From the NCBI GenBank assembly GCA_903858115.1, contig CAIOHR010000222.1:1-64000 (forward strand): a stretch of DNA of 64,000 nucleotides, given 5' to 3'. Positions 15,100 to 62,316 of this stretch are shown here, piece after piece. A program made the translations under genes and the position numbers. This DNA comes from an uncultured Pirellula sp. Its GTDB lineage: Bacteria > Planctomycetota > Planctomycetia > Pirellulales > Pirellulaceae. The notes beneath the pieces were generated by a model. The model was not told the origin of the DNA and searched no databases. It saw only the letters and a list, made by a program, of their open reading frames with translations. Each line of letters starts with the position of its first letter. The first letter of the stretch is position 1.

Positions 15100-16161
15100 A
15101 TGGACCCGAAACCAACTCCGAACCGTTCCGAATCGTCGCATGGTCGCGACTTGATGGTTCGACGCGAACGAACGATTCCTCGCCCTTTTCATACGCGATG
15201 GTCGGACCATCGAGCGTGGATTTCCAGTTGTATTCTTCATACCTGCCTATTCGTATCGGTCGCGATACTGTGGCGACCCATTGCGAAAGGGACCAACGGT
15301 GAAAAGGATCGTCCCATAGGCATCGCAGTCGTGCATCAGACCAGCAACGGGACCGAGTACTTCATTGCGGGCGGTTCTTCGGGGGCCACTGCTTCGGGCA
15401 ACACAGCCAGCGAAAATGCAGCCGCCGTTCCTGTGGCGACTCCAGGTGCAACGTCCGTCGAACAGATCTTGTCCGAATTGATGCCCGCTACATCCACCAA
15501 CGTCGGGACTGGAGCGGAGTCGATCGGTTCGGGACTAGCGGGCGGCGGGACATCCGGACTGAGTGGTGCAGACAAGGGAGAAGGGAAAACGCTTAATCAA
15601 ACCAAGACATCGTTTCTCGGTTTGGAGGGCGTTGGTGCATCGTTTGTTTATGTGTTGGATCGATCCGATTCGATGAACACACAATCGGGTGCGCCAATGT
15701 ATTTGGCAAAACGAGAATTGATGCAGAGTATCGAAAGTCTGGGTGAGAATCACCAGTTTCAAATCGTATTTTACAACGATTCCCCCAGTCCTTTGTCGTC
15801 CTCAAGAGGGGGCAACAACAGGTTACTCTTTGCCAAGCCCATCGAGAAATCACGCGCGACTCAATTCATCCGAGGAATGGTAGCCAACGGATCGACAGAG
15901 CATGCTAGAGCCTTGAAGAAAGGTCTAGACTACGCGCCGGACGTACTGTTTTTTATGACCGATGGAGATCTTCCTGGATTGTCTAGCAATCAGCTTGCCG
16001 AAGTCCAAGAGGCGGCAACTCGAAGCGGCACAACGATTCATACCATCCAATTTCGAGGCGGGCCACAAGAAGGGGATGGAGGCTGGATCCGAAGCTTGGC
16101 CGAAATGAATCGAGGCAAGTATCGCTACGTGAACGTCGAAGAAATGCGGGCTGCGGAATAG
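15100..16161 (+). CDS. Membrane-anchored von Willebrand factor A domain protein
   Basis: Residues about 48-66 (WISSCILHTCLFVSVAILW) form one membrane segment after a basic N-terminus. A long Gly/Ala/Ser/Thr-rich linker follows (about 85-175), then a VWA domain with MIDAS motif DRSDS (Asp187, Ser189, Ser191) and VLFFMTDGD as the later Asp motif. Similar proteins are common in planctomycetes, and the membrane anchor places the VWA domain outside the cytoplasm or in the periplasm. The ligand is unknown. The gene starts 11 bp after the alpha/beta hydrolase stop and probably ends the transcript; a two-hairpin repeat lies about 90 bp beyond its stop. Confidence 0.8.
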   Translation: MDPKPTPNRSESSHGRDLMVRRERTIPRPFHTRWSDHRAWISSCILHTCLFVSVAILWRPIAKGTNGEKDRPIGIAVVHQTSNGTEYFIAGGSSGATASGNTASENAAAVPVATPGATSVEQILSELMPATSTNVGTGAESIGSGLAGGGTSGLSGADKGEGKTLNQTKTSFLGLEGVGASFVYVLDRSDSMNTQSGAPMYLAKRELMQSIESLGENHQFQIVFYNDSPSPLSSSRGGNNRLLFAKPIEKSRATQFIRGMVANGSTEHARALKKGLDYAPDVLFFMTDGDLPGLSSNQLAEVQEAATRSGTTIHTIQFRGGPQEGDGGWIRSLAEMNRGKYRYVNVEEMRAAE

Positions 16162-16252
16162 ATTGTCATTTTCCAGCAGCGCCGTTTGATGCGACAACAA
16201 CGGCTTGGCCACCAGCGATAAATCCCATAGCCCAGGAAAGCTCTTTCCTTTT

Positions 16253-16348
16253 CGAGGCTACTACGCTGCTCGACAGCGTAGGGCCATAGCCGTAACCAGA
16301 CGGGTCGATGTCGGCAGACGCCACCACGCTGCTCGCCAGCGTGGAGCG
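16253..16348 (+). repeat. Two-hairpin dispersed repeat, copy A
   Basis: Two perfect 8-bp stems, CTACGCTG-CTCGA-CAGCGTAG (16261-16281) and CCACGCTG-CTCGC-CAGCGTGG (16324-16344), flank the spacer GCCATAGCCGTAACCAGAC. A second copy in the opposite orientation lies at 42823-42929. By hand alignment the first core matches at 42 of 46 positions and the second at 29 of 33. Stem sequences are conserved or wobble-compatible while loops differ. The copy sits between the convergent VWA and nucleotidyltransferase genes. Confidence 0.85.
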
Positions 16349-16468
16349 CTGGTCTGACAGCGCACGCAAACTGACCAGCATCCTACGTTGACAATGGCTA
16401 ACACAAGGGGCGATTCTGAAGTTCGAACCGATCATCTGCGATCCTATTCAATGTTGAAGCAATCAACT

Positions 16469-17071
16469 CTATTCGTTGGTAGAATCTGTTTCGGTGGGAT
16501 CGTCCTCGCCGATCGCATGGCGGACCAGTTCGCGAAATGCAGTGCGAACTGATGGGTGCAAGAATCGAGCGAACGAACCGTCGATCTTTCGAATCGCGAT
16601 GAGTTCGACGACGTCCGCAAAGTCTTTGTGCGTCCGTCTCAGGCTTCCCATTCCACAAGCGAGCTTCATCTCAATCAATCGAGAAAGTCGAACCACGGAT
16701 AAGCCTTCGCGTTCCTCAATATTTGAATCGCCAAACGGCTCCGGAATCTTGACTTCAGACCCTTTGCCAGCGTTTTCGCCCGCCAGTAGAAATTGCACAG
16801 GTACTCCACTAGAACTTCGAAACTCTCTCAATTCCGCGTTCCATTGGAAGGAATCCGCCAATAGCAACTCCTTCACCTTGAGCGAGTCTTTTGAATAAAT
16901 GATCACGTCCAAATCCGTGGTGTTGCGTTGGTAACCATGTAGACAGACCGCAACTCCCCCGCAAATCGAATGGGGGATATCAGACTGTTGGAATATTCGC
17001 TCGCAACGCAATGCGACCTCCCAGAGGGACTCGTTTCCCAGCATCGCGTAAACCTTTTGACTAGTAATCAT
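16469..17071 (-). CDS. Solitary nucleotidyltransferase-fold protein
   Basis: A 200-aa protein with the N-terminal pattern of the polymerase-beta superfamily: ICGGVAVCLHGYQR followed by TTDLDVII, supplying Asp53 and Asp55 as metal ligands. The rest resembles stand-alone nucleotidyltransferases grouped with AbiEii/MNT-type or DUF6036-like proteins (LSRLIEMKLACG, RTHKDFADVVELI). Some relatives are toxins or their neutralisers, but no HEPN or AbiEi-like partner is adjacent, so a toxin role is not supported. TTGAGG lies eight bases upstream of the ATG. The gene is divergent from purQ and convergent with the VWA gene. Confidence 0.75.
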   Translation of the reverse strand: MITSQKVYAMLGNESLWEVALRCERIFQQSDIPHSICGGVAVCLHGYQRNTTDLDVIIYSKDSLKVKELLLADSFQWNAELREFRSSSGVPVQFLLAGENAGKGSEVKIPEPFGDSNIEEREGLSVVRLSRLIEMKLACGMGSLRRTHKDFADVVELIAIRKIDGSFARFLHPSVRTAFRELVRHAIGEDDPTETDSTNE

Positions 17072-17231
17072 GGCTAGACCTCAAATTTCCTCGATTGTAG
17101 CCCAGAATGAACTTTCTAGTTACTTTCCCAGCCTCGATTTGGACTGCCAAAATGGAGTATTTGGGTTACATTAACGGGCCAACAAGACGATCTTTTTTAG
17201 AATCCGCTTCCCCCGATCCCGATGTCTAGGC

Positions 17232-18017
17232 ATGGCAAAACCAAGAGTTCTCGTACTTCGTGCCCCCGGTACGAATTGTGATGTGGAAACATCGTACGCT
17301 TTCGAAATGGCGGGAGCTGAACCTGTTCGTCTCCATGTCAACCAATTGATGGAGAATCCGTCGCTCGCTTCGACGTTTCAGATACTCTGCTTTCCCGGCG
17401 GATTCAGTTACGGGGATGATATCGCAGCCGGTCGAATTCTCGCGACACAAATCAAAACGTTCCTGAGCGAGACGCTCGAGATGTTTCGGCAAGAGGATCG
17501 TTTGGTTTTGGGCATCTGCAATGGTTTTCAAATCATGATGCGATTGGGGATCTTTTTTGAACAAGCGGAAAAGACGCCACCTGCGACTCTGACGTGGAAT
17601 CGCCAAGGGCGATTCGAAGATCGTTGGGTGCACTTGAAACCGACCAGTGATCATTGCGTCTTCTTGAAGGGGATATCGCAGTGCTACCTGCCGATGGCGC
17701 ACGCCGAAGGACGTTTTTTGTTTCGCGATGACGCCACGCGTGAAATCATGCAAGCCAGCAATCAAGTGGCCATTCAATATTGCAATCCCGCGGGCGAAAC
17801 GGGCGACAGCATTTTGGCGTTTCCCGACAATCCGAATGGTGCCGAGTCGAACGTCGCAGGCATTTGCGATACGAGCGGACGCATCTTTGGATTGATGCCA
17901 CACCCAGAGCGACATCTATTCGCCACCAACCATCCGCAGTGGACTCGGCGACGTGAACAACCGGAGCATGGCGAGGGGTTGAAAGTCTTTCAAAACGCAG
18001 TCGCTTACTTCGGATAG
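17232..18017 (+). CDS. purQ: Phosphoribosylformylglycinamidine synthase, glutaminase subunit
   Basis: PurQ supplies ammonia from glutamine to PurL in the fourth step of IMP synthesis. It is a class I glutamine amidotransferase: PRVLVLRAPGTNCD at the N-terminus, GGFSYGDDIAAGR, nucleophile Cys96 in LGICNGFQ, and the catalytic His/Glu in MPHPERH near residue 236. The 261-aa length fits the stand-alone subunit of organisms with split PurS/PurQ/PurL or small PurL. No other pur gene lies nearby. panC begins 27 bp downstream on the same strand, so the two may share a transcript although the pathways differ. Confidence 0.95.
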   Translation: MAKPRVLVLRAPGTNCDVETSYAFEMAGAEPVRLHVNQLMENPSLASTFQILCFPGGFSYGDDIAAGRILATQIKTFLSETLEMFRQEDRLVLGICNGFQIMMRLGIFFEQAEKTPPATLTWNRQGRFEDRWVHLKPTSDHCVFLKGISQCYLPMAHAEGRFLFRDDATREIMQASNQVAIQYCNPAGETGDSILAFPDNPNGAESNVAGICDTSGRIFGLMPHPERHLFATNHPQWTRRREQPEHGEGLKVFQNAVAYFG

Positions 18018-18044
18018 TTTCGTTTCAGCAAGGGTACGTGCACC

Positions 18045-18887
18045 ATGCGAGTTGTTCACTCACCTCACGAAGTCTACGCATTGGTGGACTTTGAAAGACG
18101 AAACGGAAATCGTGTCGGGCTAGTACCCACCATGGGTGCTTTGCATGCAGGGCATGTTTCGCTGGTAGAGCAGGCCAAGCTACAGTCCGATATCGTGGCC
18201 GCTACGATCTTTGTGAACCCAACGCAGTTTGGTCCCAAGGAAGACTTTGGCAAGTATCCGCGAACCCTCGAATCGGACTTGGAGAAATTGGATGCTGTCG
18301 GTTGCGATATCGTGTTTGTACCGAGTTCGGAACAAATCTATGCACCCGAGCACTCGACCTACATCGAACCGCCGAAAGTAGCCAATCGCTGGGAAGGCGA
18401 GATCCGACCTGGGCATTTTCGTGGGGTGACGACGATCGTTCTCAAGCTGTTCATGATGGTCCCGGCTCAGGTTGCCTTTTTTGGTCGCAAGGATTATCAA
18501 CAAGTGGCGGTGATTCGAGCTATGGTCGAGGATTTGAATCTGCCTATTCAGATTGTGACATGCGATACGATTCGCGAGACAGATGGTTTGGCGATGAGCA
18601 GTCGGAATCGTTATTTGAACGACTCGGAGCGTTCGCGTGCACTCAGTTTGAGCCGAGCGTTGAAAGCTGCCAACGCCATGGTTGAAGCTGGCTGTCGCAA
18701 CGTATCGGACATTGAAAACGAAATGACGAAAATGTTGCTCGCCGCCCCCGTCGATTCGATCGATTATGCCCGGATCGTCGACGGTGACACGTTGGAACCT
18801 CTTTCTGAAGTAACATCGCCTGCTGTTGCGATTATTGCTGCCAGACTCGGAACGACCCGATTGATTGATAACTGCATCTTGCGTTGA
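18045..18887 (+). CDS. panC: Pantothenate synthetase
   Basis: PanC joins D-pantoate and beta-alanine using ATP to make pantothenate for CoA. Recognition: LVPTMGALHAGH with the HxGH nucleotide motif at residues 34-37, FVNPTQFGPKEDFGKYPRT, RPGHFRGVTTIV, FFGRKDYQQ and the KMSKS-like MSSRNRYL. The 280-aa length is standard and the C-terminus (AIIAARLGTTRLIDNCIL) is intact. About 550 bp downstream lies a second, diverged copy of this same C-terminus (19437-19520), so this gene may have replaced or displaced an older panC. Confidence 0.97.
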   Translation: MRVVHSPHEVYALVDFERRNGNRVGLVPTMGALHAGHVSLVEQAKLQSDIVAATIFVNPTQFGPKEDFGKYPRTLESDLEKLDAVGCDIVFVPSSEQIYAPEHSTYIEPPKVANRWEGEIRPGHFRGVTTIVLKLFMMVPAQVAFFGRKDYQQVAVIRAMVEDLNLPIQIVTCDTIRETDGLAMSSRNRYLNDSERSRALSLSRALKAANAMVEAGCRNVSDIENEMTKMLLAAPVDSIDYARIVDGDTLEPLSEVTSPAVAIIAARLGTTRLIDNCILR

Positions 18888-19436
18888 CTTTGTGGTTCTG
18901 AGCTCGTCCAACTGGTCGCGCGCAAGGTTCGTTTAGCTACAGAACGTGATTCCCCGGTGGCGGAATGCCACAGTGGTGTTGCATTGTTTGATCGCGGTGG
19001 TTCAGGCAGAGAAACATCAAATACTTGTGTATCCCGATAATCCCGGCATGCATGCAAGACCGATACAACATAAGAAAGCAAAGTCACGAGCGCACGGCGA
19101 TTTGGATGATCATCAGCCACCTAGGAATCGCCAGTCAACTGACAGGTCGGCGCATAAGCCTGGATCTATGGATGCGATCGATTGACGTTGTCTTGGAGAA
19201 TCCACTCGCATGGATTTGCCCGATACTTTTTGCTCTTTTGAATTCTTGGATTGAGCACCGACGACTCCAGCATTTCCCATGTATCGAATTCTGCCTCATC
19301 TGTTCGGGGGTGAAATCGAGCTGGCACATACTCGGTCAGTAACGAACTCGAAACAATTATGCAGAAACTATCGTCGGGGTTAACGGTAGCGTAGGTTCGG
19401 TGGACGGATCAGAAGAAAAAAGGACAGACGCATCCT
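18888..19436. other. Gene-poor interval between panC and its ghost tail
   Basis: About 550 bp with no gene I can support. The longest plus-strand ORF (19025-19342, 105 aa) has one hydrophobic stretch (WICPILFALLNSWI) but no recognisable family, no good ribosome site and no neighbour context. The interval is bounded on the right by the panC-like tail, so it may be inserted DNA rather than an ordinary spacer. No RNA gene or terminator was seen. Confidence 0.5.
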
Positions 19437-19520
19437 ACTGCTTTTACCTCCAGTTCGGTATCTATCATCGCAGCCAGGCTTGGAATGACGCGAATGATCG
19501 ACAATTGTATTTTGCTCTGA
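19437..19520 (+). pseudogene. Remnant 3' end of a second panC
   Basis: The frame ending at the TGA at 19518-19520 encodes VSIIAARLGMTRMIDNCILL, against VAIIAARLGTTRLIDNCILR at the end of the intact panC: 16 of 20 residues identical. Codon comparison shows most nucleotide differences at third positions (ATT/ATC, GCT/GCA, AGA/AGG, GAT/GAC, TGC/TGT). The fragment therefore diverged while under coding selection and is not a fresh duplication. Upstream, similarity fades within about seven codons. It has no start or enzyme core and cannot function alone. Confidence 0.85.
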
Positions 19521-19600
19521 TTGCATGATCCCGTGTAGGTTTTATCCGGCTACAATGGGAGGCTCGGATCATTCTTGCCTCTCCTTTGTTGGGATTTTTC

Positions 19601-21265
19601 GTGAAGCAATTACTCTCCTTCTTTGTACTTCTGTATGCCGTGACTTCTGTTGGCTCGGCTAGTCATCCAAACGTATTGCTCCTTTGCGTGGATGATTTGA
19701 AACCGGCGATCGGTTGCTTTGGCGATAGGCAGGCCAAGACGCCGAACATTGATAAGTTGGCGTCGCGCGGTGTGCTCTTTGAACGAGCGTTCTGCAATCA
19801 AGCCGTCTGTTCACCTTCGCGAAACGCGTTGATGACGAGTCTTCGGCCGCAAACGATCGGCATCTACGATCTGCCGACACACTTCCGAAATGCTGCACCG
19901 AATGCGGTGACGCTGGGACAATATTTGAAGTCGCATGGTTATCGCGCCGAAGGACTTGGAAAGATATTGCATACTGGCCATGGAAACATCGATGATGCCG
20001 ATTCCTGGTCGGTTCCTTCGTGGCGTCCGAAAGCTGGCAACTATGCATTGAAGTCCAGTACCGAAGATTCTGTAGCGAGCAAAAACGGGCCGAAGGGAGC
20101 CGCTTACGAATTGGCCGATGTTCCGGATAACCAATACACCGACGGTATGGTTGCCGATGAAGCAATCGAACGATTGCGCGCTGCCAAAGAAAGAAAAGAT
20201 CAACCCTTTTTCATCGCAGTCGGCTTCGTGAAGCCTCACTTGCCTTTCGTAGCGCCGAAGAAGTACTGGGACATGCATGATCGAAATGCGTTCGAGCTAG
20301 CGTCGATTCAAACTCCGCCCACAGATGCTCCCAGTTACGCACCACAACAAGGCGGAGAGTTACGCAATTACAAAGACATTCCGGGCAGTGGGACGTTGCC
20401 TCTCGAACTTCAACGCACTTTGATTCACGGTTACTATGCCGCAACCAGCTATATGGATGCACAGGCTGGAAGGGTTCTCGACGAGTTGGATCGATTGCAG
20501 TTCACACAGAATACCATCGTCGTTTTGTGGGGCGATCACGGTTGGCATCTTGGGGACCACGGAATCTGGTGCAAGCATACGAACTACGAACAAGCGGCCC
20601 GTATTCCGGTGATCGTCTCCGCCCCGGGGATAAAGGCGGGAGTCAAATCCAAGTCGCTGATCGAGACCGTCGATCTGTACCCGACGATCGCTGAATTGGC
20701 TGGGCTTCCTGCTCCTCAAGGGCTCGATGGAAAGAGTTTTGTCCAGGCGTTGCAAGATGGCACGAAACCAGCGAGAGATTACGTGAGCCATGTTTATCCC
20801 CGGAGCACGAAGGAGAAAGGGAACTTGTTGGGGAGGGCGATTCGCGATGAACGATATCGTTTCGTCGAGTGGAAGAAACCAGGCGATGCACCCGAGACCG
20901 CAGAGTTCGAGCTTTATGATTACATATCCGATCCATTAGAATCGGCCAATTTGGCGAGCAAGTTGCCTGCGGTTGTCGCGTCCTTTCGATCGATCCTCGC
21001 GAAGCATCCAGAAGCCAAGCCACAGTGGCAAGCAGGCTCCGAAGACTCCGCTAAGTCAACGTCTGCAAGCAAACCGAAGCAGGACCGAGTCCAGATGTTT
21101 AGGCGACGCGACAAGGACAAAGATGGTCGCTTAACCAAAGAAGAATTTCTCAGCGAGCAATCGGATCCCGATGAAGCCCCCAAGCGTTTTTTGAAGTTTG
21201 ACGCCAACGGCGATGGCTTTCTCAGTCAGGATGAGTTTGTATTCTCCGGAAAATCGAACAATTAG
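19601..21265 (+). CDS. Secreted sulfatase with two C-terminal EF-hands
   Basis: Type I sulfatase related to iduronate-2-sulfatases. After a signal peptide (KQLLSFFVLLYAVTSVGSA), it has LLCVDDLKPAIGCFGD with metal-binding Asp pair, TPNIDKLASRG, and the formylglycine motif VCSPSR with Cys70 as the residue to be oxidised. LWGDHGWHLGDHG supplies later metal and sulfate ligands. The last about 60 residues carry two EF-hand loops, DKDKDGRLTKEE and DANGDGFLSQDE, suggesting calcium binding outside the cytoplasm. I prefer the GTG at 19601; the tracked TTG at 19586 adds five residues. It is separated from the next gene by 82 bp. The natural substrate is unknown. Confidence 0.92.
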   Translation: MKQLLSFFVLLYAVTSVGSASHPNVLLLCVDDLKPAIGCFGDRQAKTPNIDKLASRGVLFERAFCNQAVCSPSRNALMTSLRPQTIGIYDLPTHFRNAAPNAVTLGQYLKSHGYRAEGLGKILHTGHGNIDDADSWSVPSWRPKAGNYALKSSTEDSVASKNGPKGAAYELADVPDNQYTDGMVADEAIERLRAAKERKDQPFFIAVGFVKPHLPFVAPKKYWDMHDRNAFELASIQTPPTDAPSYAPQQGGELRNYKDIPGSGTLPLELQRTLIHGYYAATSYMDAQAGRVLDELDRLQFTQNTIVVLWGDHGWHLGDHGIWCKHTNYEQAARIPVIVSAPGIKAGVKSKSLIETVDLYPTIAELAGLPAPQGLDGKSFVQALQDGTKPARDYVSHVYPRSTKEKGNLLGRAIRDERYRFVEWKKPGDAPETAEFELYDYISDPLESANLASKLPAVVASFRSILAKHPEAKPQWQAGSEDSAKSTSASKPKQDRVQMFRRRDKDKDGRLTKEEFLSEQSDPDEAPKRFLKFDANGDGFLSQDEFVFSGKSNN

Positions 21266-21347
21266 TGAAGTTTTCTTGGGTTGCTTGCAAATGAATGATC
21301 AAATACTCGCTCGCGAGACGACCTGGATGATTAGGTTTTGAGGGCTG

Positions 21348-22310
21348 ATGAGAACGATGCGCTTTTGGTTCCTTGGTAGCTGGATGGCACTCATTTTGAG
21401 TCTGGGTGGATATGCCCAAGAAGTCAAGATTGGTGAAATCACTGCGGTGTGGAAAAGGACACCAATAGCGGAGGTGCAGGTTGAATTCGAGTCTCGTGTC
21501 GTTGAGACCAAGCTCACTTCGAATGCTCAGATGAAAGTTCAGGTCGATGCTGTGGGGCAGACCGAGTCTAGTTCCCAGGTAGCCAAAGGGCGATTCTATA
21601 GAAACGTTCTTGTTGGAATGCGCAAGAGTTCCGCCGAGCGAGAGTGGAATTGGATTGGCGGTCGCGGAGGGCTGAGTGTTGATCGCGTTTCGCTGAAGAA
21701 CGAGGGGATATTTGGTGTTGTAGCGGAAGCGGACCGAGAGGCAACGATTGTGACGTTGCAAGAGGTGCAGTTGATAATGGCTTGGTTAGACCCGCTGGCA
21801 ACGACGATGTTCTCTCGCATCAAACTCGACGATGAGCTAGACCTTCGAAGCTTTGAAGATCCAGCGATCGGTTCGGTTGTTCAGATGGAGATTCGAGGAG
21901 AGAGAACGTTTGAAATGGTGCTCGCCAAGAAGTTCGATTGGCGACCGATTGAGGCGAGGGAGTTTTTGGGAAACAAGCTCGTCGCGCAATCGGAATGGAC
22001 TTATCAGGTGAAGGATCAGAAGCGAATCGAGCTTGTGGACGCGACTCAGACGACTTTTCGTGGCTTGGTAACCAGTGAGTGCAAGATCCAAATGGAATCG
22101 GTTCGATTGGAGTGCCCCGAAGATCGGATCGCAATTGCTTTGGAAGGCGAGTATGTTCTTTTCGAAGATTCGGGAAAAGGGAAAACGTATGTTGTGCTGA
22201 AAGATGGTACCAAGCATGTTTTGACCGATGAAATGCGGCGGGGGCGAAAAAGTTGGACGGAAATTTTTGCTTGGGTGCGAGAGAATTCTCCCAAAGGTGC
22301 GACTAAATAG
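21348..22310 (+). CDS. Unknown secreted protein, 320 aa
   Basis: Begins with a signal peptide (MRFWFLGSWMALILSLGGYAQ) and then a soluble, beta-rich, charged region with no domain I recognise. Repeated short segments such as VQVEFESRVVETKL and WTYQVKDQKRIEL could be beta-strands of a lipocalin- or LolA-like barrel; this is only an impression. It ends 12 bp before the metallophosphoesterase gene and so is probably cotranscribed with it and the M20 peptidase. The long uninterrupted frame, codon use like its neighbours and a signal peptide support a real gene. Function unknown. Confidence 0.72.
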   Translation: MRTMRFWFLGSWMALILSLGGYAQEVKIGEITAVWKRTPIAEVQVEFESRVVETKLTSNAQMKVQVDAVGQTESSSQVAKGRFYRNVLVGMRKSSAEREWNWIGGRGGLSVDRVSLKNEGIFGVVAEADREATIVTLQEVQLIMAWLDPLATTMFSRIKLDDELDLRSFEDPAIGSVVQMEIRGERTFEMVLAKKFDWRPIEAREFLGNKLVAQSEWTYQVKDQKRIELVDATQTTFRGLVTSECKIQMESVRLECPEDRIAIALEGEYVLFEDSGKGKTYVVLKDGTKHVLTDEMRRGRKSWTEIFAWVRENSPKGATK

Positions 22311-22322
22311 TAAAACTAGAGG

Positions 22323-23048
22323 ATGCATCTAGCCCATTTAAGAATCATCGGAGACGTTCATGGCCGTATTGTCCCCAGGCAACGTCGCGCGGATCTAGAC
22401 AAAGACAGACGCTCCACGCCCGCAATATGGCGAGATCGACGCGTCCGAGGTAGGAGTTATCAACGGTTGGCTTTGGAGTCGAAGTACTCGATTCAGGTCG
22501 GGGATTTAGCAGGAGACTATTCGGAGCTTTCCGATATCGATCCGGGATTCCATCGCGTCGTGGCTGGAAATCATGACAACCTGCCGAAGCTAAGTCAGCA
22601 TTTCTTGGGAGACTACGGCATCTTCTCTGTCCCATGCAATGCGGGAAAAATGGATGTCTTCTACGTTCGGGGAGCCGCCAGTATCGATCGAGCGATGCGA
22701 GTGGAAGGGTTGAATTGGTGGCCAGACGAAGAGCTCAGCGAAGCCCAGCATCCGTCAGCGATGGAGGCATACATCGTAGCAAAGCCGCGCATGGTGGTGA
22801 CGCATGATTGCCCTAGCGAGTTAGTGTCTACTGTGGCGACGTTGGAGGAAGATATACAGAAGAGCCAAACGAATAATCTTCTTCAGAGAATGTTCGAGGC
22901 GCATGCGCCGCAATGGTGGTTCTTTGGGCACCATCACAAGAACTGGGTGTTTCAGCACCCTAGAGGGACGCGATTTGTCTGCTTGGGGTCGCTCGCCTAT
23001 TTTGATTTTGATGAGAACGGACGGTCGGTATCTTGGAAACCCGAGTAA
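22323..23048 (+). CDS. Calcineurin-like metallophosphoesterase with an Arg-rich insertion
   Basis: Motifs of the two-metal phosphoesterase fold appear in order: IIGDVHG (residues 8-14), VGDLAG (about 59-64), AGNHDN (81-86), VVTHDCP and FFGHHHKNW. The protein is cytoplasmic-looking, with no signal peptide. Between GDVHG and the helix SYQRLALES lies a stretch of about 30 residues very rich in Arg and Asp (PRQRRADLDKDRRS, WRDRRVRGR). In the family these elements are usually separated by only a few residues, so this looks like an in-frame insertion. The substrate is unknown; protein phosphatase or nucleotidase activity is possible. It lies between the unknown secreted protein and the M20 peptidase, with spacings of 12 and 15 bp. 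Confidence 0.82.
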   Translation: MHLAHLRIIGDVHGRIVPRQRRADLDKDRRSTPAIWRDRRVRGRSYQRLALESKYSIQVGDLAGDYSELSDIDPGFHRVVAGNHDNLPKLSQHFLGDYGIFSVPCNAGKMDVFYVRGAASIDRAMRVEGLNWWPDEELSEAQHPSAMEAYIVAKPRMVVTHDCPSELVSTVATLEEDIQKSQTNNLLQRMFEAHAPQWWFFGHHHKNWVFQHPRGTRFVCLGSLAYFDFDENGRSVSWKPE

Positions 23049-23063
23049 AGCGGAAAGAGCAAA

Positions 23064-24281
23064 ATGGAATTGGAAGGCTGGTTGTCAGCGAATGCCAATC
23101 AGATGGCAGACGATCTTGAGCGATTGTGCAATGTGAGTTCTGGGTCGGATGATCTGGATGGTTTGCGACACATGGAGGAGATGTTAGTCGAGTATTTTGA
23201 GCCGCTGGGAGTTCCTTGTCAGCGGATACCGTTGCCAGACTTCGAAGTGATGGACGATTGCGGTGTTGCGAGGCTTCAATCCACCTCGCGTGCCATTCGA
23301 TGGGATATGGTGCGTGCCAAGGCGTCGCATCGAAAGAAGTTGTTGATGTCGATTCATTACGACACGGTTTATGGACCAGAGAGTTCTTTTCAGCGTTGTG
23401 AGCGATACGAAGTGGGCGGAGAGCAAAGGATGCGAGGGCCCGGTGTCATCGATGCGAAAGGCGGCATCGTTATCCTGAAGTGGACAGCGATGGCAGCTAA
23501 GCAATTTCTCGACTTGTCCGAAGTTGGATTGAGCATAGTGCTAACACCTGACGAAGAAATTGGCTCGCCTGCTTCGATAGATTTGTGGAGACGCATTGCG
23601 AATGAGTATGGGTTTGCAATGCTTTACGAGCCGACCATGGCGGATGGTTCGATGGTCTCGCATCGCAAAGGAACCGGGACTTATATAGCCATCGTGCGAG
23701 GGCGTTCGGCTCATTCCGGGCGCAATTTTTCGGCTGGACGCAATGCGATTCTGCATGCGTCCAGATTAGCGGTTCGATTGGATGGACTGAATGGGGTGCG
23801 AGAAGGGGTTACGGTGAATGTCGGGAAGATTCGTGGTGGTGACGCTGTTAATGTTGTGCCCGATTTATGTGTTTTGCGTGTTAATGTCCGGGTGAATGAT
23901 CATTCGGACTACGGATGGATACAGCAGCAGATCGAGAAGATACGCGCAGAAATGGACCTGCCGTCTGAAGGGTTTCGTGTAGAAATCACCGGCGGAGTTC
24001 ATTCGGCTCCGAAGGTGATGGATGCATCGACGCAGGGTTGGATGCAAGCGGTGGAGCGAAGGGGAAAAGAATTGGGTCAATCGATCCATTGGAAAGGGTC
24101 AGGCGGGGCAAGTGATGGGAATAAGCTAGCGCAGCTTGGGCTGCCCAACATTGATACGTTTGGGCCAGAGGGAGATTTATTGCATAGCGACCAGGAGTGG
24201 GTATCCATTGCCAGCATGCCGAAAAAGGTGCGTTTAGGGGTCGCAATGATTGAGTATTGGGCAGGCATACCTGAAAAATGA
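23064..24281 (+). CDS. M20 family metallopeptidase (glutamate carboxypeptidase-like)
   Basis: Zinc hydrolase of the ArgE/DapE/CPG2 superfamily. Metal ligands and catalytic residues are evident: SIHYDTVY (His98, Asp100 following), GVIDAKGG (bridging Asp130), TPDEEIGS (general base and ligand Glu164/165), and LLHSDQEW near the C-terminus with the last His ligand. The dimerisation domain is present in the middle (GRSAHSGRNF...VNVGKIRGGDAVNVVPD). No signal peptide is seen. The closest subgroup by motif spacing is glutamate carboxypeptidase/acetylornithine deacetylase-like; the exact substrate is not resolved. It ends just before the promoter of the ribosomal operon. Confidence 0.9.
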   Translation: MELEGWLSANANQMADDLERLCNVSSGSDDLDGLRHMEEMLVEYFEPLGVPCQRIPLPDFEVMDDCGVARLQSTSRAIRWDMVRAKASHRKKLLMSIHYDTVYGPESSFQRCERYEVGGEQRMRGPGVIDAKGGIVILKWTAMAAKQFLDLSEVGLSIVLTPDEEIGSPASIDLWRRIANEYGFAMLYEPTMADGSMVSHRKGTGTYIAIVRGRSAHSGRNFSAGRNAILHASRLAVRLDGLNGVREGVTVNVGKIRGGDAVNVVPDLCVLRVNVRVNDHSDYGWIQQQIEKIRAEMDLPSEGFRVEITGGVHSAPKVMDASTQGWMQAVERRGKELGQSIHWKGSGGASDGNKLAQLGLPNIDTFGPEGDLLHSDQEWVSIASMPKKVRLGVAMIEYWAGIPEK

Positions 24282-24291
24282 ATATTTGCGA

Positions 24292-24320
24292 TTGACGGCT
24301 CGGCCTTACCTCCCTATCTT
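24292..24320 (+). promoter_or_regulatory. Sigma-70-like promoter of the ribosomal protein operon
   Basis: TTGACG (24292-24297) and TATCTT (24315-24320) are separated by 17 bp, a near-consensus arrangement, directly after the M20 peptidase and about 90 bp before rpsJ. Transcription would start near 24327, giving a leader that contains the hairpin at 24354-24378. Confidence 0.65.
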
Positions 24321-24353
24321 TTTGCCTCCCGCGAGCGACGTGGGGTTTGGTGA

Positions 24354-24378
24354 GCTGTAAAAACGACAAATTTACAGC
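24354..24378 (+). promoter_or_regulatory. Leader hairpin upstream of rpsJ
   Basis: A perfect 8-bp stem GCTGTAAA / TTTACAGC with a 9-base loop lies in the rpsJ leader and is followed by GTTTTCAACGTTTTTTC. The position fits an attenuator or a ribosomal-protein autoregulatory site, as L4 uses in other bacteria, but sequence similarity to any known leader was not recognised. Confidence 0.5.
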
Positions 24379-24410
24379 GTTTTCAACGTTTTTTCAAAGT
24401 GGTGAGCACA

Positions 24411-24734
24411 GTGTCTGGTTCGCATGAAGTTATTCGGATCCGAATGGAAGCCTATGATCATGCGGTTTTGGATCAGAGCGCCCTTGAGATCGTTGATACA
24501 GCCAAGCGAACGCACTCTGAGGTGCATGGTCCAATTCCGTTGCCGACTCGAATCGAAAAGTATACGGTCCTCGCTGGTCCGAACATCGACAAGAAGGCTC
24601 GTCAGCAGTTCGAGATTCGAACTCACAAGCGATTGATTGACATCAAGCAAGCGACGGCGAAGACCATTGAAGCTTTGAATAAATTGAGTCTGCCTGCAGG
24701 GGTGGATATCAAGATCAAGGCGACGTCGCGATAG
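24411..24734 (+). CDS. rpsJ: 30S ribosomal protein S10
   Basis: First gene of the S10 cluster. S10 binds the 3' domain of 16S rRNA and, as NusE, also takes part in transcription antitermination. Typical segments: [54 protein letters not shown] prefer the GTG at 24411 because GGTGAG lies five bases upstream; the tracked GTG at 24399 has no Shine-Dalgarno sequence. This gives 107 aa, close to the usual 102. Confidence 0.96.
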
Positions 24735-24903
24735 TAGCGGTTTTTTATTAACGTATCCATCAGGTATTCCACAATGAAACGGAAGTCCTGAGGGTAACCA
24801 TCGAGATGCGATCTGCCAAATGTCGGCAGGTTGCAAGCCGGATGAAAGTATCTGGCGAATCATTGGTGTGTCCCTCTCGGCAAACGATTTACGGAAAAAA
24901 ACG

Positions 24904-25590
24904 ATGAGCAAAGGTATACTCGGCCGAAAGGTCGGAATGACACAGATTTTTGAGCAGGACGGAAGGGCGATTCCGGTTACTGTTATTGAGGCAGGTCCTT
25001 GCCATGTTTTGCAAATCAAGACCGTAGATCGAGATGGTTACGAGGCAATGCAGATCGGTTTCGCAGACAAGCCACGACGTTTGGTCGGTCGTGCTGGGCG
25101 AGGTCATGTTGCTTCTATCTCCAGCAAGAGATCGACCAAGCTAAAGGCGGCTGGTGGTTCGGTCGGTACGAAGCCTGAGTGCGAGCCAAAACGATTTGTT
25201 CGTGAGTTCCGCGGTGCTGCGACTGCTGAAGTTGGTGCTGAAATCAAGGTTAGTGTGCTTGATGGCGTGAAGTCGGTCGATGTGACCGGTACTTCGAAGG
25301 GTTGTGGTTTCTCTGGTTGGATGAAGCGGCACAATTACGCTGGTCAGCGTGCAACGCACGGTGTGAAGAAGGTCCATCGACATGCTGGTGGTACGAGTGC
25401 TGGTACTTATCCTGGTCGTGTTCGCAAGGGTAAGAAGGGTGCGGGGCATTACGGTGTTGACCGTGTTACGATGCGGAACATGAAGGTGGTTCGCGTGGAT
25501 GCGGAGAACAATTTGCTGCTCGTTCATGGTGCCGTTCCTGGTCCGACGGGCGGATTCGTTATCGTTCGTGAAACCAACAAGCTTGGCTAG
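24904..25590 (+). CDS. rplC: 50S ribosomal protein L3
   Basis: An early-assembly protein near the peptidyl transferase centre. The ATG at 24904 begins [20 protein letters not shown], the canonical L3 N-terminus; the tracked start at 24820 is an upstream extension. [19 protein letters not shown] and the loop with [22 protein letters not shown] are typical. A 169-bp spacer separates it from rpsJ, longer than in most S10 operons. Confidence 0.97.
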
Positions 25591-25636
25591 GGGTTGGCTA
25601 AAAGATTCGGCCAAGGCATTGAGGTAAATTTTAATA

Positions 25637-26263
25637 ATGACAACACTTCCGGTTTTTGATCTCGCGGGCAACAAGGTTGGCGATTACGAAATCGATCCAG
25701 CTTCGATCGCTCCGAAGGTTAGTAAGCAGCTTCTTCACGACGTGGTCGTGATGTACTTGGCGAACAAGCGTCAAGGTAGCAATAAAACAAAGACGCGCGG
25801 CGAGGTTTCTGGTTCGACAAAAAAGCTTTACAAGCAAAAAGGGACTGGGAACGCTCGTGCTGGGGCGAGGCGGACTCCGGTTCGTCGTGGTGGTGGTCAC
25901 GCAAATGCTCGCCAACCGCGATCGTATTACTATCGGCTTCCTCGCAAGGCGGTTCAGGCTGCGACACGAATGGCGATCGCTTCGAAGATTTCTTCGGGTT
26001 CGGTTGTCGTGGTGGATCAGTTGAAGATGGATGCGCCAAAGACGAAGACGTTGGCGGCGGCTTTCAAGGCTTTGGGTCTTGAAGGGCAGACGAAGACGTT
26101 GGCAATTGGCGGTGTGGATCGCAATGTTTACTTGAGCGGTCGAAACATTCAGGGTTGTACTGTAAGTACAGTTTCAGACTTGAATGCTCTCGCGGTTTTG
26201 CGACCTCGAAAGTTGGTTGTGACGCGTGAGGCTCTCGACTGGATCAAGTCGCGAGTTGGCTAG
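25637..26263 (+). CDS. rplD: 50S ribosomal protein L4
   Basis: L4 lines the exit tunnel and in some bacteria represses its own operon. Identified by the central loop (QKGTGNARAGARRTPVRRGG) and the C-terminal domain (VVDQLKMDAPKTKTL, LNALAVLRPRKLVVTREAL). The 208-aa length is standard. It lies 46 bp after rplC in the expected order. Confidence 0.96.
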   Translation: MTTLPVFDLAGNKVGDYEIDPASIAPKVSKQLLHDVVVMYLANKRQGSNKTKTRGEVSGSTKKLYKQKGTGNARAGARRTPVRRGGGHANARQPRSYYYRLPRKAVQAATRMAIASKISSGSVVVVDQLKMDAPKTKTLAAAFKALGLEGQTKTLAIGGVDRNVYLSGRNIQGCTVSTVSDLNALAVLRPRKLVVTREALDWIKSRVG

Positions 26264-26283
26264 TATTGAGTATTGATAATAGG

Positions 26284-26293
26284 GTCCCTTCGG
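26284..26293 (+). other. Small UUCG-loop hairpin ahead of rplW
   Basis: CCC-TTCG-GGG forms a very stable tetraloop hairpin in the rplD-rplW spacer, about 30 bp before the rplW start. It has no U-tract, so it is more likely a processing or stability element than a terminator. Confidence 0.35.
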
Positions 26294-26325
26294 GGGTTGT
26301 TTGAGCGGTAACGCGAAAGAGAATC

Positions 26326-26637
26326 ATGGCAAAGCAGCCACCTAAAACAAGCATGACACTAACGGCGCACCAAATCGTCATACGACCATTGGTGACCGAA
26401 AAGGGTGTGCACAAAGCTACGCGACAGAATCGTTATGCTTTCGAAGTGAATCCGTTGGCGGACAAGACCGACATTAAGGATGCAATCGAAGAGCTATTTA
26501 ATGTAAAGGTGATTGCAGTAGCGACACAGAATCGTGCCGGCAAGAGTCGCCGTTACAAAGCAAAACTCGGCGTGACGAGAGCTTGGAAAAAAGCGATTGT
26601 CAAGTTGAGCAGCGAACACAAGATCGACTTCTTCTAA
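26326..26637 (+). CDS. rplW: 50S ribosomal protein L23
   Basis: L23 sits at the tunnel exit and docks trigger factor and SRP. The core VIRPLVTEKGVHKATRQNRYAFEVNPLADKTDIKDAIEELFNVKV is shown by short diagnostic segments LVTEKGV and DIKDAIEELF. The N-terminus (AKQPPKTSMTLTAHQ) is slightly longer than average. The order rplD-rplW-rplB is canonical. Confidence 0.95.
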   Translation: MAKQPPKTSMTLTAHQIVIRPLVTEKGVHKATRQNRYAFEVNPLADKTDIKDAIEELFNVKVIAVATQNRAGKSRRYKAKLGVTRAWKKAIVKLSSEHKIDFF

Positions 26638-26652
26638 GGAACGGCTAGAACT

Positions 26653-27510
26653 ATGGGAATTCGAGTATATCGACCAACATCGCCGGGCCGAAGAAATTCA
26701 TCGGTTAGCGATTTTGCTGAGTTGACTCCAGGCGCAAAGCCTGAGAAGTCTCTCTTGAAGAGATTGAAGCGTCACGGCGGTCGTAACAATCAAGGATTCA
26801 TTACGGCGCGACATCGTGGTGGTGGGCACAAACAGATGTATCGCATCATTGACTTTCGTCGAACGAAGGATGGTGTTACGGCTAAGGTGGATTCGATTCA
26901 GTACGATCCAAACAGATCGGCTCGGATTGCATTGTTGCATTACGCGGATGGTGAGAAGGCTTACGTTATCGCTCCAGATGGCTTGAAGGCTGGGCAGACA
27001 TTGGTGAATGGCTCGGATGCGCCTCCGACGGTTGGGAATTGTTTGCCGATGCGAAATATTCCGCCAGGAACGGAAGTTTGCTGTGTGGAAATGACGCCTG
27101 GGCGTGGGGCGGCTCTTTGTCGGTCAGCTGGTACCTCGGCTGTTTTGATGGCGAGGGAATCGGGTTGGGCGCAGTTGCAGCTTCCGAGTGGTGAAATTCG
27201 GCGGGTGCCAGGTCAGTGCCGAGCTGTCATTGGTAAAATTGGAAATTCGGATCACGACGCGGTTCGAATCGGCAAAGCGGGACGAAACCGATGGAAGGGT
27301 TGGAGACCACACGTTCGCGGTACGGCGATGAATCCTCACGATCACCCGCACGGTGGTGGTGAAGGCCGGACCAAGGGTGGGCGACATCCGGTCAGTCCAA
27401 CCGGTGTTTTGGCAAAGGGTGGAAAGACACGTCGACCACGCAAGCCAAGCAATACCGCGATTATTCGTCGACGCAAGTCGGTTCGTTACGGTCAATTAAA
27501 ACTTAAGTAG
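26653..27510 (+). CDS. rplB: 50S ribosomal protein L2
   Basis: L2 is needed for subunit association and peptidyl transfer. Clear markers: [48 protein letters not shown], and the conserved C-terminal [19 protein letters not shown] containing the functionally important His. The 285-aa length is slightly above the usual 275. The spacing to rplW is 15 bp. Confidence 0.97.
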
Positions 27511-27533
27511 TTTGTAGGGAAGAGTTCTGACGT

Positions 27534-27806
27534 ATGGGACGTTCGACAAAAAAAGGGCCTTTCGTAGAGCCCAAGCTGTTCGCAAAGTTGCTGAAGGCGC
27601 GTGAAAAGGGTGACGGTCAACCGATCACTACTTGGGCGCGTCGATGCACCATCGTTCCAGAGTTCGTTGGAGCGACCTTCATGGTTCACAACGGCAAGGC
27701 TCACATCAAAGTGTTCGTAACGGAAGATATGGTCGGTCACAAGCTCGGCGAGTTTGCACCGACCCGTACTTTCCGTGGGCACGGCGGTAAGGGCGGCAAG
27801 AAGTAA
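27534..27806 (+). CDS. rpsS: 30S ribosomal protein S19
   Basis: S19 forms part of the head of the 30S subunit with S13. Recognised by [38 protein letters not shown] and [16 protein letters not shown]. Length (90 aa) and position after rplB are canonical. Confidence 0.97.
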
Positions 27807-27831
27807 CGACTTTTTGAAATAGGGATTTATC

Positions 27832-28188
27832 ATGGCTTTTAAGGCCGTTCATCGATACGCACGCATCAGTTCCAGAAAGGTTCGACCTCTGGCTGACTTG
27901 GTTCGTGGTAAGTTTGCTGACGAGGCGCTTGAGCTGCTCCAATTTCAGCCCCATCGCGGTGCTCGTATGTTGGAGAAGGTGATCAAGAGCGCAGTTGGCA
28001 ACGCGCAAGATACAGAGCAAAACGGTGGACGTTCTTTCTCTGCGGAAGAGTTGGTTGTCGTGGATGCTCGCATTGACGGCGGTCCTATGTTCAAGCGATT
28101 TCGACCGATGTCGCGAGGCCAGGCGTTCACAGTTCTAAAGCGAACGAGCCACATTTCGGTAGAACTCAAACGTCTGGAAGAGCTGTAG
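27832..28188 (+). CDS. rplV: 50S ribosomal protein L22
   Basis: L22 contacts all 23S domains and its beta-hairpin reaches into the exit tunnel. Typical segments: YARISSRKVRPLADLVRG, EKVIKSAVGNAQD, and the C-terminal hairpin FKRFRPMSRGQAFTVLKRTSHISVEL. It starts 25 bp after rpsS and ends 10 bp before rpsC. Confidence 0.96.
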   Translation: MAFKAVHRYARISSRKVRPLADLVRGKFADEALELLQFQPHRGARMLEKVIKSAVGNAQDTEQNGGRSFSAEELVVVDARIDGGPMFKRFRPMSRGQAFTVLKRTSHISVELKRLEEL

Positions 28189-28198
28189 GAACTGAGAT

Positions 28199-28912
28199 AT
28201 GGGACAAAAAGTAAATCCAATTGGTTTTCGTACTGGCATCGTCATGGGCTGGAAAAGCCGATGGTATGCTAACAAAAAAGAGTTCGCCGAGCTTTTGGTC
28301 GAAGACCAAAAGATTCGCAAGTTCATTAAGTTTCATCCGACAAAGCCCGCATATAGAGAAGCGGGGATCGATCGAATCGAGATCGAGCGGACGCGTGATG
28401 AAGTTCGGTTGATGGTTTTCGTGGCAAAGCCAGGTTTGATCATCGGCAAGAAGGGTACAGAGATTGAGGTTTTGCAGGAAGAGCTGCAGAACTTGATCGG
28501 ACGAAGAGTCAACTTGAAGGTTGAAGAAGTATACCGACCTGAGATTCAGGCGCAATTGATTGCTGAAGACATTGCGAAACAATTGGCGAAGCGATCAAGT
28601 TTCCGTCGGACGATGAAGCGTTCCATTGAAACAGCGATGGATGCGGGTGCATTGGGTATCAAGATACAAATGTCAGGACGTCTTGGTGGTGCAGAAATGG
28701 CTCGTTGCGAAAAAGGCAACGCAGGTGCTCTGCCGTTGAGTACGATTCAGGCAAAGATTAGTTATGGGTTCGCTGAAGCCGCTACTCCGCAAGGAAACAT
28801 CGGCATTCAAGTGTGGGTAAATCAAGGTTCTTACGCGGGAGATGCTAACGATGGCGCTGATGCCCAAACGGGTCAAGCACCGAAAAAGCCAAAGAGGACG
28901 TATAAAAGGTAA
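28199..28912 (+). CDS. rpsC: 30S ribosomal protein S3
   Basis: S3 lines the mRNA entry channel and has helicase function with S4/S5. It begins GQKVNPIGFRTGI and contains a KH domain (LIIGKKGTEIEVLQEEL) and RRTMKRSIETAMDAGALGIKI. Its last 62 bases overlap the start of rplP, which is far more than the usual few bases; the final residues (GQAPKKPKRTYKR) are a basic tail. Confidence 0.97.
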   Translation: MGQKVNPIGFRTGIVMGWKSRWYANKKEFAELLVEDQKIRKFIKFHPTKPAYREAGIDRIEIERTRDEVRLMVFVAKPGLIIGKKGTEIEVLQEELQNLIGRRVNLKVEEVYRPEIQAQLIAEDIAKQLAKRSSFRRTMKRSIETAMDAGALGIKIQMSGRLGGAEMARCEKGNAGALPLSTIQAKISYGFAEAATPQGNIGIQVWVNQGSYAGDANDGADAQTGQAPKKPKRTYKR

Positions 28913-61110: not shown

Positions 61111-62316
61111 ATGGAATTCTTTTGGAACGATGGAGGCCGATCGGCATGTGGTTTTGTGGGTTTGGCTGGCGATTGTGTAACGCGTTCGATTGCGATCGCG
61201 ACGGGTTTGGTCTACCGAGATGTTTACAACCAGCTTGGAGCGGCGAGCCTCGCTACACCGAGAAATGGAGTGCGAACGGATATTGCCGCCAAGTTCCTAG
61301 AAGACCGCCAATGGCGCCGCACAGAGATTTCGCCAACTAGCTACGTACCCTCGTTGCTTCCCGCAGGTGCAGTCATCGTTCATCTTGCTAAGCATGATGG
61401 ACGATGTTCTCACTTCAGCGCATTGATCGATCACGTGGTTCACGATACCTGGGATCCAAGTGATGACGATGACTATTGCGCCTATGCATATTGGACGCAT
61501 CCTGACTATGGACCAGAATCCGTACGTCAGTCAAGTCCCGCGTCGAGATCGAGTTCAGCAGACCAGGATCTAACCCAAGCGGAGTTTGACAAGATCCTCA
61601 ATCGATTGCGAGCCATGGATCGAACCGCGAGCAACAGCGCAAGCACCGAAGCGGAAAAGCACAATGCCATTCGCATGATGCAGAGTCTGATGCTTCGACA
61701 CAATCTCAGCCGCGAAGATATCACCTCGGACGACAATGTTGAGACTGTGCAGTTCACTCAAATGGCTTGTCCAGTGAATGGAAGTAAAGCCTACAATTGG
61801 GAAAAAGCGTTGGCTAACTACATCACCATGCATGTGCTCCCAACAACACAATGGTACTCCGGCTCGAAATCGCATCGCACGCTATTCTGTTTTTACGGGC
61901 CGCTCGCCGATGTGCGAAATGCGATAGCTCTTTTTCGGGAACTGTTGGTGACGATTGCTGCCGCAGCGAAACTCCAGTTCGGCGGGCACTCGCGCGGGAG
62001 CGGAGCGTCCTACGCCGAGGGTTATGTCATGGGGCTTCCCCGTCATGGCTCCAGTAGCGGATTAGAAAGTCCGAACGATTTGAAAGAAGATTCTGCGAAA
62101 ATCGTCAGTGAGCGAGCATTGATCCAATTACGAACACTCGCTATTCACTCGGCGGCCACACGTTGGCTTGATATCGAATGCGGTTTGCGACTCGTATCTG
62201 TGAGTAGAACTGGGCGATATGCACGCGACGATGCCGCAGAGCGCCGTGGTATCCTACATGGATCCAAGCATGAAATTGTGGTTCCTAATGCCCCCAGACG
62301 ATTGACCCAATCATGA
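61111..62316 (+). CDS. Fusion of a phage-like papain-fold domain with DUF2786
   Basis: The N-terminal part (about residues 1-130) reads FWNDGGRSACGFVGLAGDCVTRSIAIA, shown as GLAGDCVTRSIAIAT, with VYRDVYNQLG and later GRCSHFSALIDHVVHDTWD. Cys22, His101 and an Asp such as Asp112 would suit a papain-like catalytic arrangement; similar CxxRA(I/L)AIA domains occur in phage genomes. After a Ser-rich linker, DUF2786 follows (ILNRLRAMDRTASNSASTEAEKHNA), then a conserved region (LANYITMHVLP, ASYAEGYVMGLPR) often associated with it. Both halves are typical of phage/accessory genes, so horizontal origin is likely. Substrate and function are unknown. Confidence 0.75.
   Translation: MEFFWNDGGRSACGFVGLAGDCVTRSIAIATGLVYRDVYNQLGAASLATPRNGVRTDIAAKFLEDRQWRRTEISPTSYVPSLLPAGAVIVHLAKHDGRCSHFSALIDHVVHDTWDPSDDDDYCAYAYWTHPDYGPESVRQSSPASRSSSADQDLTQAEFDKILNRLRAMDRTASNSASTEAEKHNAIRMMQSLMLRHNLSREDITSDDNVETVQFTQMACPVNGSKAYNWEKALANYITMHVLPTTQWYSGSKSHRTLFCFYGPLADVRNAIALFRELLVTIAAAAKLQFGGHSRGSGASYAEGYVMGLPRHGSSSGLESPNDLKEDSAKIVSERALIQLRTLAIHSAATRWLDIECGLRLVSVSRTGRYARDDAAERRGILHGSKHEIVVPNAPRRLTQS

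Follow-up and report, generated by a model that had tools for sequence, protein, structure and literature searches.

Remnants of redundant or failed gene copies are a known class in genomes (PMC522871). Those left after the loss of a redundant copy are truncated leftovers with an intact homolog in the same genome and are conserved near one end only (Liu et al. 2004, PMC522871). Two further situations are known in which the end of a gene, or one of two versions of a gene, loses its place. According to the account of Hill et al. 1989 given in PMC11148124, icdC of Escherichia coli is the tail of icd, displaced by the prophage e14. Xenologous gene displacement is described in PMC1274311, where Omelchenko et al. 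2003 is cited for displacement in situ; here two versions of a gene meet and one of them is lost. For panC in Planctomycetes, our literature search returned nothing relevant.

The locus analysed here lies in a window of 64 kb, which is the whole stretch of DNA under study, from the genome of an uncultured Pirellula sp. (hereafter G000), and it consists of an intact panC followed by the 3' end of a second one. It resembles the remnants of PMC522871 in being a truncated leftover of which only the part near one end is conserved, the genome also having an intact homolog, and differs from them in that it is unusually short (24 codons) and adjoins that homolog. With icd/icdC it shares the layout, namely an intact gene and then a second copy of its own 3' end in one orientation, but the two panC tails are only 68% identical in nucleotides against about 93%, and the panC locus has no element, integrase or shared core. 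Like a xenologous displacement it involves two versions of a gene, one of them lost, but the surviving panC bears no foreign sign in phylogeny or synteny. The panC remnant belongs to the gene-remnant class and is a case of ordinary genome decay: most of the coding sequence is missing, only 24 of 280 codons are left, the enzyme can no longer be encoded, and the remnant has no function as a protein. It can be recognised only because the C-terminus of PanC is conserved. The features of the locus are as follows.

15100..16161, plus strand: gene with a vWA domain, syntenic neighbour of purQ-panC in the relatives G006 and G026 (Pfam search, synteny)
17232..18017, plus strand: purQ-type glutamine amidotransferase (GATase_5), genus-wide upstream partner of panC (Pfam PF13507; purQ-panC adjacency in relatives)
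18045..18887, plus strand: intact panC, pantoate--beta-alanine ligase, 280 aa (Pfam PF02569, E=2e-102; 94% aa identity to the relative G023)
18902..19003, no strand: dispersed repeat, of which G000 has about a dozen diverged copies, starting 4 bp past the point where panC homology with G023 ends
19178..19384, minus strand: final 69 codons (3' tail) of an unrelated gene of 1154 aa, 80% aa and 87% nt identity to the relative G012, back to back with the panC remnant
19383..19445, no strand: join of 63 nt between the two gene tails, without recognisable panC homology
19446..19520, plus strand: what is left of a second panC at its 3' end, 24 codons and the TGA, TSSSVSIIAARLGMTRMIDNCILL and stop (tblastn, DNA HMM, partial ortholog in G023)
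19495..19520, plus strand: portion of the remnant that G023 likewise retains upstream of its sulfatase (blastn, G023 contig C12)
19586..21265, plus strand: sulfatase with a C-terminal EF-hand, bordered by the remnant (Pfam PF00884; 94% ortholog in G023; the start may be GTG at 19601)

When the intact PanC was searched against the window by tblastn, a match was found at 19446-19514 in a plus-strand frame (18 of 23 residues identical, 21 of 23 similar, E=6e-6), and the same query against the 813-nt stretch downstream of panC, along the lines of the check proposed beforehand, gave a significant match to the remnant with E=7e-9. From this stretch a DNA HMM built on panC tails of 80 codons from members of the genus independently recovered 19457-19514 (E=2.1e-12). 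Aligned to its stop, the remnant TSSSVSIIAARLGMTRMIDNCILL stands against TSPAVAIIAARLGTTRLIDNCILR of the intact PanC, and a search of the whole G000 genome yields one intact panC and this remnant, no more. Sequence comparison thus confirms 19446-19520 as the genuine tail of a second panC. The preliminary description had reported a fragment of 20 codons from 19437 with 16 of 20 residues matching, downstream of the intact gene and in its orientation. The panC tail with its TGA is real and does lie on the plus strand, its confident extent starting 558 bp past the stop of the intact gene, but the numbers need slight correction to those given here; 19437-19445 has no recognisable panC similarity. 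Over the rest of 18888-19445 neither tblastn nor the DNA HMM found anything panC-like. Three candidates were tried and rejected: a frameshifted panC extending the remnant upstream into 19383-19445, which aligned no better than shuffles; a weak match of PanC residues 204-279 to 19287-19514, the left part of which is not panC, 19178-19384 being the tail of the gene known from G012; and AAAAAGGACAGACGCATCC, taken for a repeat or the end of a transposon, which is single-copy in G000 and absent from G023.

The two tails agree at 51 of 75 nucleotides (68%), and the 24 differences fall on codon positions 1, 2 and 3 as 4, 3 and 17, changing 20 codons, 14 of them synonymously and 6 nonsynonymously. In a neutral simulation (20,000 runs with 24 changes each), 10.3 of 24 residues were kept on average and 17 at most, and the observed 18 were never reached. 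With 17 of the 24 differences at third positions and a protein identity that the simulation never attained, the parent gene is seen to have diverged under selection, and the codon pattern supports the view that most of the divergence arose under selection on the protein, before the remnant was cut down. Divergence as a functional panC ahead of truncation had been proposed earlier and is borne out, whereas the accompanying remark that nearly all differences are synonymous overstated a bias which is real at third positions. The third positions of the remnant are near saturation, matching those of its own genome's panC at 7 of 24, of G023 at 10 of 24, and of G026 and G006 at 12 of 24 each.

The age of the remnant becomes clear from comparison with relatives, all of them Pirellula-like planctomycetes, of which G023 is the closest (PanC 94% identical in amino acids). 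By blastn, positions 19495-28459 of the window correspond to G023 contig C12 at 92% identity, the match starting inside the remnant. This independent assembly retains the last 8 codons and the stop, VIDNSILL and stop, directly before the orthologous sulfatase, and thus shows an origin shared at an orthologous site. Upstream of it G023 has tsaD, not panC, and in G000 tsaD is found on a different contig, where a different neighbour follows it. Since the same residues stand before the same sulfatase in G023, where the intact panC is on a different contig, the remnant predates the split of G000 and G023 and is tied to the sulfatase. The adjacency of panC and remnant occurs in G000 only, and among the genus relatives neither a second panC nor a panC before this sulfatase was found.

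Such recurrence of the junction between remnant and sulfatase also bears on whether the remnant could be due to chance or to faulty metagenome assembly. The remnant is short, and the G000 assembly, in 445 contigs, has an estimated contamination of 5.5%; set against this are the E-values of the protein and DNA searches, the same junction in G023, and the difference of at least 12% among the copies of the spacer repeat, too much to easily confuse an assembler. We regard chance or artefact as extremely improbable.

As to its relationship, the remnant shares the exact stop position of the PanC of G000 and G023 (280 aa), other members of the genus having 282-300 aa. It also groups with these two, with support of only 38 to 52 for its placement inside the clade (72 nt, near saturation), so weak a placement being what 24 surviving codons would allow. 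This grouping, and not one with an outside lineage, points to a second panC either specific to this lineage or received from a near sister. Two full-length panC genes are present in two other genomes of the family: G113 (L192 and L203, copies about 45% alike) and G255 (L199 and L202, 72%), the latter with flanks also alike and possibly a mixed bin. The remaining double panC matches in the family proved to be gene pieces, contig ends or one weak unrelated match.

The intact gene has neighbours of its own. Adjacency of purQ and panC is common across the genus, and the vWA gene precedes purQ in G000, G006 and G026; its presence there in G006 and G026 means that on this side G000 preserves the ancestral order and G023 has a derived one. 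In G023 the intact purQ-panC is a 1.8-kb island (17097-18898 of the window, 90%) on contig C14 with breakpoints on both sides and both flanks different; the two flanks are found on one G000 contig, C2, separated by about 7 kb and inverted relative to each other, and the vWA gene to the left of purQ in G000 has its G023 ortholog on a further contig, C226. On C226 (L213:5140-7003) the vWA gene is followed by an opposite-strand sigma-54-type response regulator, not purQ, a further breakpoint of the scrambled order. On C2 a copy of the dispersed repeat (61725-61819) lies within 400 bp of the site that matches the left flank of the G023 purQ-panC (62087). Between the vWA gene and purQ, G000 has a 200-aa ORF on the minus strand (16469-17071), nucleotidyltransferase-like by eye and without a Pfam match, none being seen at the corresponding place in G006, G026 or G023. 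A REP-like element at 16252-16394 forms two strong hairpins (CTACTACGCTGCTCGACAGCGTAG and CCACCACGCTGCTCGCCAGCGTGG) and has many copies in G000 and G023, some clustered a few hundred bases apart (for example on G000 contigs C280 and C104 and G023 contig C194).

The trees of PanC and PurQ both join G000 and G023 with G006 and G026, with support for the join of 0.73 and 0.90 respectively. From the native synteny and the congruence of the two trees, the intact panC is most simply a vertically inherited resident, and on this ground the purQ-linked copy appears to be the resident, working gene and not a newcomer. The preliminary description had suggested the reverse, that an incoming panC displaced a resident one, and had proposed gene order and trees as checks. 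In such an in-place replacement the incoming gene would have recombined beside purQ and left the resident 3' end downstream with its old neighbour, the sulfatase; the layout of intact gene, short insert and old tail in one orientation is as it would predict, and at third positions the remnant is slightly nearer the genus consensus than the intact tail is. What speaks against it, besides the agreement of the PanC and PurQ trees and the native upstream synteny, is that identity of the intact panC to G023 is even (88-92% over its full length), that the identity of intact PanC to its relatives falls gradually toward the C-terminus in all of them, and that in none of the genomes does the sulfatase follow an intact panC. 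A mosaic structure of the intact panC was considered and rejected for lack of a clear break. Replacement in place is therefore unlikely, a small probability being left for one within the same clade: gene order did tie the remnant to the sulfatase and the trees did group it with the G000/G023 clade, but by both the intact gene looks native.

Between the two tails lies DNA of mixed origin. Several copies of the dispersed repeat at 18902-19003 are present in G023 too, and the copy near the C2 site suggests that recombination between repeat copies may have taken part in the move of purQ-panC. The gene tail at 19178-19384 has no Pfam match and comes from a gene that, among the 40 genomes searched, was found complete in G012 alone (L098:2214-5678), where the contig also bears repeated transposon-like relics. 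The truncated sides of this tail and of the panC remnant face each other across the join, an arrangement that one deletion through two divergently oriented genes would produce.

A further reading is modelled on e14 and icd, by which a mobile element integrated in the 3' end of panC, supplied a new end, displaced the native tail and later shrank to the spacer. The layout is like that of e14/icd (PMC11148124) and the spacer contains DNA absent from relatives. However, 18888-19445 consists of the repeat, the foreign gene tail and other DNA, with no integrase gene or element, although an old element could have been deleted. Nor is there an identical crossover core, the longest exact run between the tails being 5 nt, compared with icd, where 165 bp contain 12 changes (PMC11148124), although decay could hide an old core. 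Moreover, apart from fragments of genes that are split or lie at contig edges, a search of 241 family genomes found, at its threshold, no further repeat of a panC tail. We consider such an integration very unlikely, and it is highly improbable that the panC 3' end is or was a target of integrating elements in this lineage, with the intact tail supplied by an element and the remnant its displaced native end.

The remnant is probably the debris of an extra panC of the same clade, lost by rearrangement, the purQ-linked panC being the resident. The common ancestor of G000 and G023 would have carried, directly upstream of the sulfatase, a second, functional and presumably full-length panC, which may have arisen by duplication or by transfer from a near sister and would have diverged from the purQ-linked gene under purifying selection. 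Being redundant, it would then have been lost by rearrangement or deletion, with breakpoints differing by lineage so as to leave 24 codons in G000 and 8 in G023; two separate losses and a remnant that was short in the ancestor already would explain the data equally well. The visibly scrambled gene order of the lineage provides the setting for such a loss. The tail itself may have been kept because further deletion would hit the 5' region of the sulfatase, which extends to the remnant the argument of border-induced selection, that is, retention next to a conserved border (PMC9748784). A simple consensus scan of the plus strand found no sigma-70 promoter for the sulfatase inside the remnant.

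The remnant, a small scar of gene loss that can be dated, leaves what is known of pantothenate (vitamin B5) synthesis unchanged. It lies in a genus whose gene order is scrambled and in which purQ-panC moved as a 1.8-kb unit. Together with its counterpart in G023, it suggests that the tail of a gene can outlive the rest when it borders the start of the next gene.
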